From Bacteroidota bacterium (lineage in GTDB: Bacteria > Bacteroidota > Bacteroidia > Chitinophagales > Chitinophagaceae), in NCBI GenBank assembly GCA_018267965.1, contig JAFDXK010000002.1:186001-250000 (forward strand): a DNA stretch of 64,000 nt, read 5' to 3'. Positions within the stretch are counted from its first letter, which is position 1; the number at the start of each line of letters is the position of its first letter. Positions 34,871 through 39,899 of this stretch are shown here, piece after piece. A model generated the notes under the pieces. The model did not search any database and was not told where the DNA came from. It saw nothing but the letters and a program-made list of their open reading frames with translations. The translations under genes were made by a program, and so were the position numbers.

Positions 34871-35983
34871 TTACTTAATGGTTAAAGCAAGGCTATCTGC
34901 AAGTATTTGAGCAACAACACGCGTGCCTATTGATGTAAAATGTGCATAATCATAGTAATAGCGTGAATCTAACGGCATGGCTTTGGCCAGGTCTACGGTT
35001 TTTATACGGCCTTGTTTATTAAGGTCGAGTAAGGCTGCGTTATATACTCCAAGTATCATGCCCTGCATTTTTGCATTCCTGCCGGGCACCACTTTCAGTG
35101 TTCCAAAATCAATGCGCGTAGCCGGGTCTTTAAAGCTACCGAACAATGATGGTTGTGTAAGGAATATCGCCTTTATATGATTGGCTTTGCAAATAGAATC
35201 GAGCTTTAAAATACGCTTGCGATAAGCATCTACATAGGTTATTTGTGCATCCACTTGTTTTACCATCGTAACACTATCTATAGACAATCTCTTTTCTTTA
35301 GAAAAATCAACTTCGCGATGCGTGAGCCCCCTGCGATATGCTACACGCGAACGATACAGATTTTCCAATAATGCACCCGTTTCTGTTTTACGAATCAAAG
35401 AGCGAAACCAATCTTTCACACTGTGTGTATCCCACTCGTTGGAATTGTAAGTATCGAAACCACCCATAGCTTTCTCTTCCATGTCGTTGACACCAGTAAG
35501 AAAAATCACATAATCGGGATGTAGGGAAACAATATGGTCTTTTAACAAAATGATATGACCGAAAGTAGATGTACCATCGAGCCCTGCATTATCGAGCCAG
35601 ATATTTGGTGCTATTGTTTTTCGCAGATTACCTTTTAGTAATTCAGGCCAGGTAAGGCTATCACTATTATAAGAACATTCTGTAGTGCTGCCGCCGATGG
35701 TGATGATCTTAATCCAATCTTTAGGATTAGCAGGCATTTCTTCACCGCGTAAACCGAGTGAATTACGTGAATAGTAAATCTCTTTTTCTAGCTTATTGCT
35801 TTGTGGGTTTTTATGAATGGTTTTTTGATAGGCAGGCAAAACTATCTTACCATGCTTAATGCGAAAAGGTATAGGGTTGAAAACACGGAGGATAATTTCT
35901 ATCAAAAACAAAGAAACCAACACACCGAAAAACAATGCTTTTACATTGCTCCAAAATGTTGGTTTCTTTCTATGTTGTTCCAT
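34871..35983 (-). CDS. SGNH/GDSL hydrolase family protein, membrane-anchored
   Basis: A 370-residue protein with an N-terminal membrane anchor (about 12-33) and an exported SGNH hydrolase domain. Block I is GGSTTE (catalytic Ser99), block II NAGLDG, block III TGVND (Asn166) and block V D-x-x-H (YYDYAHFT). It is probably an esterase or acetyl-transfer-related enzyme acting on glycans or lipids at the cell surface. Its ATG overlaps the stop of the carB half-gene (TAATG), so it is translated from the same mRNA, an unexpected pairing. Confidence 0.85.
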   Translation of the reverse strand: MEQHRKKPTFWSNVKALFFGVLVSLFLIEIILRVFNPIPFRIKHGKIVLPAYQKTIHKNPQSNKLEKEIYYSRNSLGLRGEEMPANPKDWIKIITIGGSTTECSYNSDSLTWPELLKGNLRKTIAPNIWLDNAGLDGTSTFGHIILLKDHIVSLHPDYVIFLTGVNDMEEKAMGGFDTYNSNEWDTHSVKDWFRSLIRKTETGALLENLYRSRVAYRRGLTHREVDFSKEKRLSIDSVTMVKQVDAQITYVDAYRKRILKLDSICKANHIKAIFLTQPSLFGSFKDPATRIDFGTLKVVPGRNAKMQGMILGVYNAALLDLNKQGRIKTVDLAKAMPLDSRYYYDYAHFTSIGTRVVAQILADSLALTIK

Positions 35984-37626
35984 TACAGGAAGGTACTGTA
36001 GAAATATGGTGTCTTGGCTTCGAACTCGGCACTACAAGTATCTACCATTTTGTAAACACGTGTGATACCTGCCTGCTTGCGGAATTCATATACTTCTTCT
36101 GCCGTGCAGTCAGAAACCAATTCTGCAATTTGCTCATCGCTGAAGCCCATGAGTTTTGCTTCACGCAAAAGTTCAACTGGCATTTTTTGCAGGTGTTTGA
36201 TTTCCTTTATCTGCTTTTCAAGATTTACTATGTCTTGTATTTGATATAAGAACCAGCGATCTATTTGTGTTACTTCACGAATCGTTTTGATAGATATGCC
36301 TGCTGCAATCGCTTCTTTAATGCGGAACACCCTATCCCACTGCGGGCGTTTGAGTGTTTCCAGCAACTCTTCCGGACGCAAACGTGTTGTGCTGGTGAAG
36401 CTCAAACCTGTAGCATTGTTTTCCAAACTTTGACAAGCTTTCTGTAATGCTTCAGGGAAGGTGCGGCCAATGGCCATTACCTCTCCTACAGATTTCATCT
36501 GGAAGCCCAGCGTATCATCTGCACCTTTGAATTTATCAAAGTTCCAGCGTGGCATTTTTACTATTACGTAATCTAACGCAGGCTCGAAGTATGCTGATGT
36601 AGTTTGTGTAATTTGATTTTTCAGTTCATCGAGATTGTAACCGATAGCCAGTTTAGCAGCAATCTTGGCAATAGGATAACCGGTTGCTTTAGATGCGAGT
36701 GCTGATGAACGGCTTACACGTGGGTTGATCTCTACTACTATTATTTCTTCTGTTTCGGGGTTGAGTGCAAACTGTACGTTACAACCACCTGCGAAGTTGC
36801 CCAACGCGCGCATCATACGGATAGCTGTGTTTCGCATCAATTGGAAAGCTGTATCGCTAAGTGTCATAGCAGGAGCTACTGTGATGCTGTCACCCGTATG
36901 CACACCCATAGGGTCGAAGTTTTCTACCGTACAAATAATGGCTACGTTATCAGCAGAGTCGCGCAGTAGTTCCAACTCAAATTCTTTCCAACCAATTACT
37001 GCTTTTTCAACCAGTACCTCATGTATTGGTGATGCAGTTAAACCTCTTTCGAGGGCGGCATCCAAATCTTCTTTATGAAATACCAGCCCACCGCCTGTAC
37101 CACCCAGTGTAAATGACGGGCGTATTACCAATGGTACACCAATTTCCTGAGCAAATTCTTTACCCTCTAATAATGAGTTAGCAATTTTTGCTGGTGCAAC
37201 AGGTATACCCATTTCAATCATCCATAAGCGGAATTTCTCACGGTCTTCTGCCTTGTCTATCGCTTTGGTATCAACACCTATCAGGCGCACATTGTATTCT
37301 TTCCACAGTCCAATCTCTTCTGCTTCCATGGCAAGGTTCAATGCAGTCTGTCCACCCATGGTAGGCAATACGGCATCAATCTGATTCTCTTGTAATATCT
37401 TCTCTATACTCTCTACCGTTAATGGTAATAAGTATACTTTATCTGCCACCAGGGGATCGGTCATGATAGTGGCCGGGTTGGAGTTAATCAATGTTACTTT
37501 GATTCCCTCTTCGCGCAGGCTGCGCGCAGCTTGTGAACCTGAATAATCGAATTCGCAGGCCTGACCAATGATAATAGGACCTGAACCGATAATGAGAACG
37601 TTTTTTATGGAAGTATCTAGTGGCAT
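35983..37626 (-). CDS. carB: carbamoyl-phosphate synthase large subunit, N-terminal half only
   Basis: The 547 residues cover only the carboxyphosphate synthetase half of CarB, whose usual length is about 940-1070. Present are the N-terminal Rossmann-like subdomain (VLIIGSGPIIIGQACEFDYSG), the ATP-grasp domain (RPSFTLGGTGGG, IVVEINPRVSRSSALASKATGYPIA) and the oligomerisation region up to VYKMVDTCSAEFEAKTPYFYSTFL. The stop falls where the linker to the second synthetase half begins. The next codons encode a different protein, so this is not a simple frameshift. A split carB (N- and C-terminal genes) is known in some archaea and Aquifex. The other half must be elsewhere, or the enzyme is inactive. 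Confidence 0.88.
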   Translation of the reverse strand: MPLDTSIKNVLIIGSGPIIIGQACEFDYSGSQAARSLREEGIKVTLINSNPATIMTDPLVADKVYLLPLTVESIEKILQENQIDAVLPTMGGQTALNLAMEAEEIGLWKEYNVRLIGVDTKAIDKAEDREKFRLWMIEMGIPVAPAKIANSLLEGKEFAQEIGVPLVIRPSFTLGGTGGGLVFHKEDLDAALERGLTASPIHEVLVEKAVIGWKEFELELLRDSADNVAIICTVENFDPMGVHTGDSITVAPAMTLSDTAFQLMRNTAIRMMRALGNFAGGCNVQFALNPETEEIIVVEINPRVSRSSALASKATGYPIAKIAAKLAIGYNLDELKNQITQTTSAYFEPALDYVIVKMPRWNFDKFKGADDTLGFQMKSVGEVMAIGRTFPEALQKACQSLENNATGLSFTSTTRLRPEELLETLKRPQWDRVFRIKEAIAAGISIKTIREVTQIDRWFLYQIQDIVNLEKQIKEIKHLQKMPVELLREAKLMGFSDEQIAELVSDCTAEEVYEFRKQAGITRVYKMVDTCSAEFEAKTPYFYSTFL

Positions 37627-37742: not shown

Positions 37743-38156
37743 TCATAATGTGCTTTTTAAATAGGCTGTCAATTCGTTGATGACGGTTTGTTTATCTGTT
37801 CTTATCCTGGCAATAAACTCTTTGGGTGCGGCTGTTTCAAAATCGTAAGTAGCACTCCAGTTAATAATTTCAATAATTACCGGTACTAGGTCAATAGCTT
37901 TTGCAGTTAATGAATATATTTTGCGTGACTTATTCTCAGTATCCTGTTTGCTGGAAAGCAAGCCTGCACATTCAAGCATAGCCAACCTGTCGGCTAATAT
38001 GTTTGTTGATATTCGTTCTTCACTTTTGAGAAATTCTCCATACGTTTTTTTGTTCTGAAACATCAGATCACGGATAATTAGCAAAGACCACTTATCACCA
38101 AATATATCTAAAGCATAGCTGATAGGGCAATGTGTCCGATGCTTGATCTCATTCAT
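37743..38156 (-). CDS. HxlR family winged-helix transcriptional regulator
   Basis: A 137-residue regulator of the HxlR/YodB type, often redox- or aldehyde-responsive. The signature CPISYALDIFGDKWSLLIIRDLMF is complete, including the N-terminal Cys (Cys10) used for sensing in YodB-like members. The winged helix follows (FLKSEERISTNILADRLAMLECAGLLSS). It is transcribed divergently from the SRPBCC operon, with two palindromic sites in between, so it very likely controls both. Signal unknown. Confidence 0.92.
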   Translation of the reverse strand: MNEIKHRTHCPISYALDIFGDKWSLLIIRDLMFQNKKTYGEFLKSEERISTNILADRLAMLECAGLLSSKQDTENKSRKIYSLTAKAIDLVPVIIEIINWSATYDFETAAPKEFIARIRTDKQTVINELTAYLKSTL

Positions 38157-38160
38157 AATA

Positions 38161-38190
38161 CAAATTTAGGGAAGCACTTGCATTTTACAA
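38161..38190 (-). promoter_or_regulatory. hxlR promoter (TTG-N19-TAAATTTG)
   Basis: On the minus strand TTG (38190-38188) and an exact TAAATTTG box (38168-38161) are separated by 19 bases. The ATG at 38156 follows 4 bases later, so the mRNA is probably leaderless. The -33 TTG is the right arm of operator 1. Confidence 0.7.
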
Positions 38191-38193
38191 GTG
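38175..38193. promoter_or_regulatory. palindromic operator 1 for the HxlR regulator (predicted)
   Basis: CACTTG-N7-CAAGTG, a perfect 6-bp dyad. Its left TTG is the -33 element of the plus-strand promoter and its right CAA is the -33 TTG of the minus-strand promoter. A dimeric winged-helix protein bound here would block both. Confidence 0.65.
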
Positions 38194-38209
38194 AATTTAT
38201 GTACATTTG
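38178..38209 (+). promoter_or_regulatory. promoter of the SRPBCC operon (TTG-N21-TACATTTG)
   Basis: TTG at 38178-38180 and an exact TACATTTG box at 38202-38209, spacer 21 bases. Operator 1 covers the -33 element and operator 2 (38216-38230) the expected start site. The first ATG is at 38247. Confidence 0.68.
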
Positions 38210-38215
38210 TTTCTG

Positions 38216-38230
38216 CTTGCATTTTGCAAG
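38216..38230. promoter_or_regulatory. palindromic operator 2 for the HxlR regulator (predicted)
   Basis: CTTGC-ATTTT-GCAAG, a perfect 5-bp dyad sharing the CTTG-N7-CAAG core and the CATTTT centre with operator 1. Centres are 39 bases apart, close to four helical turns. It sits over the plus-strand start site. Confidence 0.6.
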
Positions 38231-38246
38231 TACTAAATATCCTAAT

Positions 38247-38711
38247 ATGGGAACACTTCAGGCAAAAAATGAAATGGTGATAGCTGCCCCTATCAGTTCA
38301 ATATGGAATGTCATCACAGATATAGAAACCTTACATAAAGTAAATCCGGGTGTTATTAGTGCAAAAGGACGGATGAATACATTGTACGACACACGCACAT
38401 GCGAAATTGATAATAAAGGACGTAAAGGTACTATGGTTGAAAAACTCGTAGAACTGGTACCCAATCAAAAAACTGTCTGGACAATAGAAAGTGATACTAT
38501 GGGTATGAGTAAAATGTTACGCGATACCAAGTTCTGTTTTGAACTTCAAAAACTGGGCGATGAAAAAACAAGGGTAATAAGCGCCACCTATTACACACCA
38601 GCTAACATTGTTGCAAAGCTTATGAACACGTTAATGATGAAAAAAATGATTGGCAATGCACAACAACAAATTCTTGAGAACATAAAAGCACTCACTGAAA
38701 AACCGCAATAA
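38247..38711 (+). CDS. SRPBCC (START-like) family protein, first copy
   Basis: A 154-residue cytosolic protein with a Bet v1/START-like hydrophobic pocket. Family features are the opening strand NEMVIAAPISSIWNVITDIETLHKVNPGV, the middle GTMVEKLVELVPNQKTVWTIES and the long C-terminal helix (KKMIGNAQQQILENIKALTE). The frame is open upstream to 38130, but that part lies in the promoter; the ATG at 38247 is chosen. It overlaps the next gene by one base. As part of an HxlR-controlled operon it may bind or detoxify a small hydrophobic or reactive compound. Confidence 0.85.
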   Translation: MGTLQAKNEMVIAAPISSIWNVITDIETLHKVNPGVISAKGRMNTLYDTRTCEIDNKGRKGTMVEKLVELVPNQKTVWTIESDTMGMSKMLRDTKFCFELQKLGDEKTRVISATYYTPANIVAKLMNTLMMKKMIGNAQQQILENIKALTEKPQ

Positions 38712-39163
38712 TGAGTACACTGAATAATGAGATTATTATCAAAGCGCCACTTGAAAAAGTTTGGGACCTACTTGCCGATGCTACGCAACTTGGTAAATAC
38801 GACCCTACTATTAAAAGTTGTACGCTCATATCTAAACAACAAACAGGGATAGATGCGAAACGTAAAATAGATATGCTGGATGGCAAAAACTGGTTCGAAG
38901 AAAAAATAACTGTTTGTGAACCAAATAAAGCGCTTGCTTATCAACTAACGGCATGTTCCTTTCCCATCAAGCGCTTACAACATACCTATACTTTTGAAAA
39001 CATGGGGAATGGTAATACTAAGGTAAAACAGGTGATGGAATATTCCGTTAAATTTGGGATACTGGGTAAGCTTATGGATGCTATGATGATTAAAAAACAG
39101 TTTAACACAGGTATAGGCAAATTTTTCGCAGGCCTTAAAACATACGCAGAAACTAAAAGTTAG
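38711..39163 (+). CDS. SRPBCC (START-like) family protein, second copy
   Basis: A 150-residue paralogue of the previous protein with the same layout: NNEIIIKAPLEKVWDLLADATQLGKYDP at the start, KNWFEEKITVCEPNKALAYQLT in the middle and the C-terminal helix MIKKQFNTGIGKFFAGLKTYAE. Start and stop codons overlap (TAATG) with the first copy, so translation is coupled; the two may form a heteromer. Ligand unknown. Both copies share the M-M-x-K-K motif before the final helix, which supports tandem duplication. Confidence 0.85.
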   Translation: MSTLNNEIIIKAPLEKVWDLLADATQLGKYDPTIKSCTLISKQQTGIDAKRKIDMLDGKNWFEEKITVCEPNKALAYQLTACSFPIKRLQHTYTFENMGNGNTKVKQVMEYSVKFGILGKLMDAMMIKKQFNTGIGKFFAGLKTYAETKS

Positions 39164-39165
39164 TT

Positions 39166-39510
39166 ATGGCATACAACGAAAAACTTAATGACAGGTTGCG
39201 AGAAGCAATGTCTCTACATAAAAACGTTGAGGAGAAACATATGTTTGGCGGCACGTGTTTTATGCTGAACGATAAGATGTGTGTGGGTGTTGTGGGCGAT
39301 GAGCTGATGTGCCGAATAGGACCTGATGCATATGAAGCGGCACTGGAGCGAAAAGGTTGCAGGGAAATGATATTCACAGGCAAACCTATGAATGGATATG
39401 TCTTTGTTGCCGAAGAAGGAATGAAGTCGAAAAAAGATTTTGAGCATTGGATAAACTTGTGTCTTGACTTCAATAAACATGCAAAATCATCTAAGAAGAA
39501 GAAAAAATAA
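39166..39510 (+). CDS. TfoX N-terminal domain family protein
   Basis: A 114-residue protein with the TfoX/Sxy N-terminal domain: LREAMSLHKNVEEKHMFGGTCFMLNDKMCVGV, then DELMCRIGPDAYEAAL and the end MIFTGKPMNGYVFV. The C-terminus is a Lys-rich tail (SKKKKK). In Gammaproteobacteria Sxy activates competence genes with CRP, but single-domain versions in Bacteroidota occur with stress-type genes and their role is unknown. It starts 2 bases after the SRPBCC gene and is part of the HxlR-controlled operon. Confidence 0.85.
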   Translation: MAYNEKLNDRLREAMSLHKNVEEKHMFGGTCFMLNDKMCVGVVGDELMCRIGPDAYEAALERKGCREMIFTGKPMNGYVFVAEEGMKSKKDFEHWINLCLDFNKHAKSSKKKKK

Positions 39511-39530
39511 TTTCATAAAAATCAACTACT

Positions 39531-39899
39531 ATGACAAATGCAATTAACTGGTTCGAAATACCGGTAACAGATTTCGACAGAGCAAAGAAATTTTATGGTA
39601 CACTCTTCAATGCAGAAGTGCAAGAGATGCCACATCCTGAATACAAGTATGGGATGCTACCTGCAGACATGCAAAATGGTGTAGGTGGCGGCATTGTGCA
39701 AGGTCCGGGTTTTGAACCTTCACAAACAGGTTCGCTTATTTATTTAAATGGTGGCGATGATTTAAGCGGCCCATTATCAAGAGTAGAAGCAGCAGGCGGT
39801 AAAGTTGTATTGCCTAAAACATCTCTCGGGCCAAATGGTTTTATGGCTCATTTTATAGATACTGAAGGTAACAAGGTTGCGCTTCATTCTATGGGTTAA
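39531..39899 (+). CDS. VOC family protein
   Basis: A 122-residue vicinal-oxygen-chelate protein. Both half-modules are visible: INWFEIPVTDFDRAKKFYGTLFNAEV and LSRVEAAGGKVVLPKTSLGPNGFMAHFIDTEGNKVALHS. It resembles the 27 kDa-antigen/YdeN-type glyoxalase-like proteins common in Bacteroidota. It is the last gene of the operon, 20 bases after the TfoX-like gene, and is followed by a terminator. With the SRPBCC proteins it fits a small-molecule stress response. Confidence 0.86.
   Translation: MTNAINWFEIPVTDFDRAKKFYGTLFNAEVQEMPHPEYKYGMLPADMQNGVGGGIVQGPGFEPSQTGSLIYLNGGDDLSGPLSRVEAAGGKVVLPKTSLGPNGFMAHFIDTEGNKVALHSMG

Follow-up and report, generated by a model that had tools for sequence, protein, structure and literature searches.

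A probable HxlR operator at the predicted -33 positions of two divergent promoters in Bacteroidota

The stretch of DNA analysed here, called the window below, covers 64 kb of a 3.74 Mb genome assembled in 13 contigs. It carries a gene for an HxlR/DUF24 regulator, hxlR, and a divergent four-gene operon, SRPBCC-SRPBCC-TfoX_N-VOC (38247-39899, plus), with an intergenic gap of 90 bases between them. SRPBCC, TfoX_N and VOC genes are found grouped repeatedly among the loci compared below. A detoxification role for the operon would be a guess. The features of the locus, with the predicted promoter elements of both directions, are as follows.

37743-38156, minus: hxlR, 137 aa, HxlR/DUF24 winged-helix regulator, ATG at 38156-38154 (ORF list and PF01638)
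38156, minus: predicted hxlR transcription start, on the A of the ATG (leaderless), 4 bases past the -7 box
38161-38168, minus: -7 box of the predicted hxlR promoter, TAAATTTG (CAAATTTA on the plus strand), N19 from the right arm of operator 1, 6/6 to TAnnTTTG
38175-38193, no strand: operator 1, CACTTG-CATTTTA-CAAGTG (CACTTG-N7-CAAGTG), read directly, a dyad conserved at hxlR loci
38178-38180, plus: predicted -33 TTG of the operon promoter, the left arm of operator 1, with the left TTG intact in 84/86 Bacteroidota operator 1 sites
38188-38190, minus: predicted -33 TTG of the hxlR promoter (CAA at 38188-38190), the right arm of operator 1, intact in 15/16 dual loci (defined below) and 40/70 others
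38202-38209, plus: -7 box of the predicted operon promoter, TACATTTG, N21 after the left-arm TTG, 6/6 to TAnnTTTG
~38214, plus: predicted operon transcription start, with a ~33-base leader, from the 4-base spacing after the box (PMC6847099, excerpt)
38215-38231, no strand: operator 2, GCTTGCATTTTGCAAGT, at ~+2 to +18 of the operon; two dyads are common among the loci
38247-38711, plus: SRPBCC protein 1 (Polyketide_cyc2), first SRPBCC start codon at 38247 (ORF and domain match)
38711-39163, plus: SRPBCC protein 2 (Polyketide_cyc2/AHSA1; ORF and domain match)
39166-39510, plus: TfoX N-terminal domain protein (TfoX_N; ORF and domain match)
39531-39899, plus: VOC/glyoxalase-like protein (ORF and domain match)

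Elsewhere in the window, carB (carbamoyl-phosphate synthase large chain) appears split. An ORF at 35983-37626 (minus) covers model positions 3-550 of TIGR01369, while positions 551-932 of 1052 are matched by another ORF, about 88 kb off (G000:C6:311402-312538, L173).

The housekeeping (sigma-ABfr) promoter of Bacteroidota has a -33 element TTTG and a -7 element TAnnTTTG, with a spacing of about 19-21 bases. The two predicted promoters resemble it in their -7 boxes, both 6/6, and in their spacers of 21 (plus) and 19 (minus) bases. They are unlike it at -33, where the letters are CTTG in both directions (3/4 to TTTG), are fixed by the operator and are common to two opposite promoters. The region is nearly symmetric about operator 1. 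ACAAATTTA (38160-38168) and TACATTTGT (38202-38210) are inverted copies, 89% complementary and 33 bases apart, and they contain both -7 boxes.

The coordinates given for the dyads, TTG arms and boxes in a preliminary description are exact to the base when the sequence is read directly, and so is its copy-to-copy distance of 39 from operator 1 to operator 2. It had also placed operator 2 over the plus-strand start. The F. johnsoniae -7 box occupies -12 to -5 (PMC6847099, excerpt), which puts the plus start at ~38214 and therefore operator 2, with its core CTTG-CATTTTG-CAAG at 38216-38230 (+3 to +17 of the operon), just downstream. The predicted minus start would land on 38156, the A of the hxlR ATG.

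How often would such an arrangement arise by chance? When 115 bases of the region were shuffled 20000 times with dinucleotides preserved, 39/20000 shuffles held at least one CTTG-N7-CAAG dyad, none held two and none held a dyad with both boxes (0/20000 in each case). Of the 25 TTG-N7-CAA sites in the window, operator 1 alone comes with a perfect box at N18-22, and it does so on both sides. Genome-wide, the looser core CTTG-N7-CAAG occurs 37 times versus 30 for the control, and TTG-N17-23-TAnnTTTG occurs 506 times on both strands versus 567. Places with at most two mismatches to ACTTGC-N5-GCAAGT number 127 per strand versus 82 for the reversed control. Single short patterns are therefore near the genome background, and one genome proves little beyond the combination. 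The weight rests on the combination of elements and on its conservation, not on single pieces.

The 3.74 Mb genome has no listed exact copy of ACTTGC-N5-GCAAGT and six places with one mismatch, two of which are the operator pair described here. A wider regulon in the source genome is unsupported: the operator pair are the only neighbours among these six places. A C11 site, CTTGC-N5-GCAAG (L168, ~1518), was considered as a further operator and rejected, as it lies inside a longer palindrome and looks like a terminator stem.

Conservation was assessed in 134 distinct loci of the same HxlR clade, 90 from Bacteroidota (window included) and 44 from other phyla, assigned by the taxon in the record or by membership in the window's class. 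The named loci are the best 80 of a longer list, and the remainder are among the matches listed per genome search. Left out were the paralogue L001, copies of the window locus (L002, L047, L133, L138), five duplicates, loci without an hxlR match, and hxlR matches starting after residue 15 or weaker than 1e-15 (L052 and L134 among them). The dyad was scored as the 12 letters of ACTTGC-N5-GCAAGT in the 180 bases around the hxlR start, with a threshold of 10/12 (9/12 for some counts).

Two dyads at 10/12 or better are present in 47/90 Bacteroidota and 37/44 other-phylum loci. The shuffle means are 0.34 (Bacteroidota) and 0.18 (other) for one dyad and 0 for two, and equal-length stretches inside hxlR contain one dyad in 1 and 0 loci, respectively. 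Bacteroidota loci without a dyad number 13/90 at 10/12 and four at 9/12. The divergent gene varies, with no SRPBCC or VOC match opposite hxlR in 72/90 Bacteroidota loci, and the dyad is kept. Four SRPBCC1 loci with a separate upstream region (L139, L141, L143, L147), in whose retrieved stretches hxlR has no match, carry no dyad at 9/12 (0/4). The presence of at least one dyad (at least 10/12) at hxlR in 77/90 Bacteroidota and 44/44 other-phylum loci argues that the dyad is very probably the operator of the HxlR-clade regulator itself. The second of these counts is an independent check, because the consensus was drawn from Bacteroidota loci.

Where two dyads are found at 9/12, they are 28-41 bases apart in 63/64 Bacteroidota loci, 64 apart in the remaining one and 23-45 apart in other phyla. 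This variable spacing speaks for no fixed dimer-dimer geometry, and each operator is probably occupied independently of the other. To our knowledge, operators are known for few of the many HxlR/DUF24 regulators. The comparison yields a predicted operator for a clade whose members here come from Bacteroidota, Pseudomonadota, Chloroflexota, Myxococcota and Bdellovibrionota.

Two further loci deserve mention. At L134 (G065, ~2400-2500) the hxlR match begins at residue 25, and the locus lacks the hxlR 5' end together with the left arm of operator 1. It still has operator 2 and the plus -7 box, and is possibly a naturally unrepressed or dead switch. At L140 (~2355-2373) the start regions of hxlR and SRPBCC2 overlap on opposite strands, and VOC and SRPBCC1 lie on the far side of hxlR.

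The left arm of operator 1 stands in a restricted relation to the predicted operon promoter. A perfect TAnnTTTG is found at N17-23 from the left-arm TTG in 52/86 Bacteroidota loci with a dyad of at least 9/12, and none is found elsewhere within N8-40 of that arm (0/86). Reversed, complemented and reverse-complemented control boxes at plus N17-23 number 0 each, and no perfect box follows the left arm in the other phyla (0/44). In those 44 loci, sigma-70 -10 boxes (at least 5/6) were found on the plus side five times at N19 and four times at N11, and on the minus side three times each at N16, N17 and N20. The perfect plus boxes of Bacteroidota are spaced at N18 (10), N19 (17), N20 (1), N21 (22) and N22 (2).

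What if the dyads are HxlR operators and the TTG is just a set of operator letters? In this scenario there would be no real -33 contact in the phylum, and the spacing would simply place the operator over the polymerase. The plus-box spacings, spread over N18-N22, do not form one optimum, and outside Bacteroidota, too, every locus retains the left TTG of operator 1 (44/44). The F. johnsoniae promoters, in the accessible part of that study, have a -33 motif that is 'much less evident' (PMC6847099). However, arms that serve a repressor alone would be expected to decay evenly, and those of operator 1 do not. In 70 non-dual Bacteroidota loci its left TTG is intact in 69 and its right TTG in 40, with the left alone intact in 30 and the right alone in one. 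Operator 2, in 58 of the non-dual loci, has no such bias (left only 3, right only 5). Mapping on the regulator tree gives 2 changes for the left arm of operator 1 and 17 for its right arm (86 loci), compared with 6 and 5 for operator 2 (64 loci). This tree is built from few columns, many of its forks are unresolved and the window protein is not placed in it.

The dual loci show where the right arm is retained. They were drawn from the 20 Bacteroidota loci with plus and minus boxes of at least 5/6 at N18-22. Leaving out L012, L029 and L117 (minus N22, 5/6) gives a 17-locus set for start-codon spacing, and the dual loci in the arm counts are 16 of these (without L069), six of which have just 5/6 minus boxes. 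Of the 16 dual loci, 15 retain the left TTG of operator 1, 15 the right one and 14 both. The right arm is kept in 15/16 dual versus 40/70 other loci (Fisher p 0.008, uncorrected for kinship). A tree-aware pairwise test of dual layout against right-arm retention, with at most four independent pairs, is not significant. A milder bias in this direction is present in the other phyla (left only 5, right only 0, in 44 loci), so part of the arm asymmetry may have another cause. On balance the idea that the TTG serves the regulator only is unlikely, although it keeps a real share of the probability, and a -33 role for the arms is preferred. Separately, a distinct hxlR group (L014, L017, L022, L024, L026, L030) was seen by eye to face the start of a 3-oxoacyl-ACP synthase-like gene. 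In this group the left arm of operator 1 is kept and the right arm has decayed.

The regulator itself matches PF01638 (E 5.8e-14, 52.2 bits, cut-off 20.8). The best solved-structure match is PA1607 (2f2e, E 9.4e-14); YodB (5hs7) matches at E 1.6e-5 and B. subtilis HxlR (7bze) at E 0.00055. The position of Cys10 is Cys in 133/133 aligned proteins, window included (133 of the 134 loci are long enough). A single Cys is present in 61 of the 133, and the window protein has two, Cys10 and Cys63. The preliminary description had noted that HxlR/YodB-type regulators bind such dyads. This agrees with the family of the regulator and with the 4-N7-4 geometry, which equals that of the reported YodB preference, TACT-N7-AGTA (PMC8063818, excerpt).

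YodB is a repressor, as is its homologue QsrR (MarR/DUF24, quinone-sensing). Could the window regulator instead bind operator 1 to switch the operon on, in the way that B. subtilis HxlR activates its own, while operator 2 serves as a brake? The family member that gave its name to the group is an activator, one that responds to formaldehyde and whose conserved Cys is Cys11 (PMC7835342, excerpt). However, the predicted -33 elements of the two promoters both fall within operator 1, and operator 2 comes just after the operon start. The operon -7 box is already a full consensus match, and the regulator with the 4-N7-4 site, YodB, represses, as does QsrR. Activation is therefore improbable at this locus, and repression is the preferred reading.

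The predicted minus-strand promoter would use the right arm as its -33. Perfect minus boxes lie at N19 (9) and N20 (1), versus ten spread over all remaining distances. Control boxes at minus N17-23 number 1, 0 and 2, and the other phyla supply one. All ten N19-20 boxes are in loci with SRPBCC or VOC as the first divergent gene (10/18 versus 0/72). These 18 Bacteroidota loci (window included) have a perfect plus box in 15, a perfect minus box in 10 and both in nine, whereas both are perfect in 0/72 other Bacteroidota. The relatives with both boxes perfect (L004, L057, L064, L142, L144, L148, L149, L153) come from several families. Identity in the box columns among the nine loci is partly circular, because the loci were chosen for having boxes. 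In L160 the minus box is perfect and the plus box matches 5/6.

The preliminary description had looked to relatives with the same gene pair for joint conservation of dyads and boxes. Such conservation is found in 9/18 SRPBCC/VOC-first loci, and 8/18 have no perfect minus box at N19-20. Its central proposal, that the two arms double as -33 boxes, appears to hold for part of the SRPBCC/VOC type and is not general (0/72 others). The dual layout is clustered on the regulator tree, with 5 changes versus 15.8 in shuffles when 17 loci are labelled and 4 when 16 are labelled. In the window's genus, an hxlR match is present in 7/15 genomes, its own included. One of the six others, L052, starts at a contig end. 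The rest (L013, L048-L051) have a single perfect dyad facing a different gene, with plus boxes at N21 (6/6 in two, 5/6 in three) and minus boxes at N20 (5/6). Since these boxes are mostly 5/6, the dual layout is present there in a weaker form. Use of the right arm of operator 2 as the -33 of hxlR in the non-dual loci was also considered and dropped, as no distance stood out.

The distance from the minus box to the hxlR start codon is exactly 4 bases in 16/17 loci (the window and 15 others). L057 (Sediminibacterium magnilacihabitans) has 7 bases, and L153 has two adjacent GTG codons, 4 and 1 bases past the box. The start codon so spaced adjoins the conserved hxlR N-terminus and is GTG in 14/17, with ATG in L003, L057 and L069. 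It lies 31-32 bases from the operator arm in 16/17. Start-codon distance was not a selection criterion, so this regularity supports the hxlR promoter separately. Combined with a -7 box at -12 to -5 (PMC6847099, excerpt), the 4-base gap would put the start codon on +1, which predicts a leaderless hxlR mRNA. Such a gene would be a conserved exception in a phylum where only a minority of mRNAs are leaderless or nearly so. From the accessible portions of the respective studies, ~3.7% of 5' UTRs are under 10 nt in B. thetaiotaomicron (PMC7366714), 5.5% are leaderless in F. psychrophilum (PMC9723704) and 87% of leaders are over 10 nt in F. johnsoniae (PMC6847099). Pseudomonadota loci (L078, L082, L085, L092, L108, L110 and similar), viewed by eye, have an AT-rich sequence resembling a -10 element (e.g., TTAAGAT) within a few bases upstream of the hxlR ATG. 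This hints that leaders may be very short or absent in these loci as well.

Perhaps the operon promoter alone exists, with hxlR transcribed from some other site and the minus boxes arising by chance in AT-rich DNA. Ten minus boxes do lie at other distances, and a perfect one at N19-20 is missing from all 72 loci with other divergent genes as well as from the eight SRPBCC/VOC-first loci mentioned above. Set against this are the nine minus boxes at the single distance N19 and the 4-base start-codon gap, which make such a coincidence quite improbable and favour two promoters. As for the dyads being RNA hairpins or parts of terminators, they are inverted repeats and a similar one (L168) is terminator-like, but operator 1 is upstream of both predicted starts and so in neither transcript, no T-run follows either dyad and both are conserved at divergent promoters, so this can hardly be right. 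The odds given for these rival readings overlap.

The preferred reading, with a probability of about three in four, is that the region is the control region of a local, self-regulated HxlR/DUF24 switch, mechanism included. Sequence and comparison together place the arms of operator 1 where the -33 contacts of two divergent Bacteroidota promoters would belong. An HxlR dimer on operator 1 would block RNA polymerase at both promoters, and another dimer, bound to operator 2 immediately after the operon start, would tighten repression of the operon only. Both -33 sites lie inside the same 17 bp, with ~58 bases between the predicted starts, so two polymerases would exclude each other even without repressor. 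The hxlR mRNA would begin on its own start codon. Modification of Cys10 by an electrophile or oxidant may free the dimer, as family knowledge of YodB/QsrR suggests. On release, the operon and fresh repressor would be made together, and the switch would close once the signal is gone.

A more ambitious version is that this is a true two-way promoter. The operator would be the shared -33 of two mutually exclusive promoters, the hxlR mRNA would start on the start codon, and the hxlR loci would form a natural mutagenesis series showing, arm by arm, that the -33, so far weakly supported, is real in Bacteroidota. We give this version an even chance. Either way, the locus is a compact system for asking whether -33 elements matter in Bacteroidota, where RNA-seq has shown them weakly (PMC6847099, excerpt). 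What is taken as new is the division of the predicted -33 elements between the two arms, the predicted leaderless start at a fixed distance and a probable operator common to several phyla. The layout is not described among the literature matches listed, at the level of titles and abstract openings and with most subscription papers outside the coverage.

A divergent autorepressor with shared operators is a textbook principle. Tn10 tetR-tetA is such a divergent, autoregulated pair, with two operators overlapping both promoters, and in this the window locus is alike. It is unlike Tn10 in that each arm of one palindrome would be the upstream element of one direction and in that the regulator mRNA is predicted to be leaderless. 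B. subtilis HxlR uses two sites at hxlAB. It belongs to the same Pfam family and, in the published excerpt, shares the conserved Cys (Cys11 there), but it is an activator, whereas repression is likelier here. The nearest likeness is with YodB and QsrR as far as the available excerpts describe them: an HxlR-like winged helix, a conserved N-terminal Cys and two 4-bp arms ~7 bp apart. However, their targets are azoreductases and nitroreductases, whereas those here are SRPBCC, TfoX and VOC genes. The arms here are CTTG/CAAG, and there are two operators, one of which sits at the predicted -33 of both divergent promoters.
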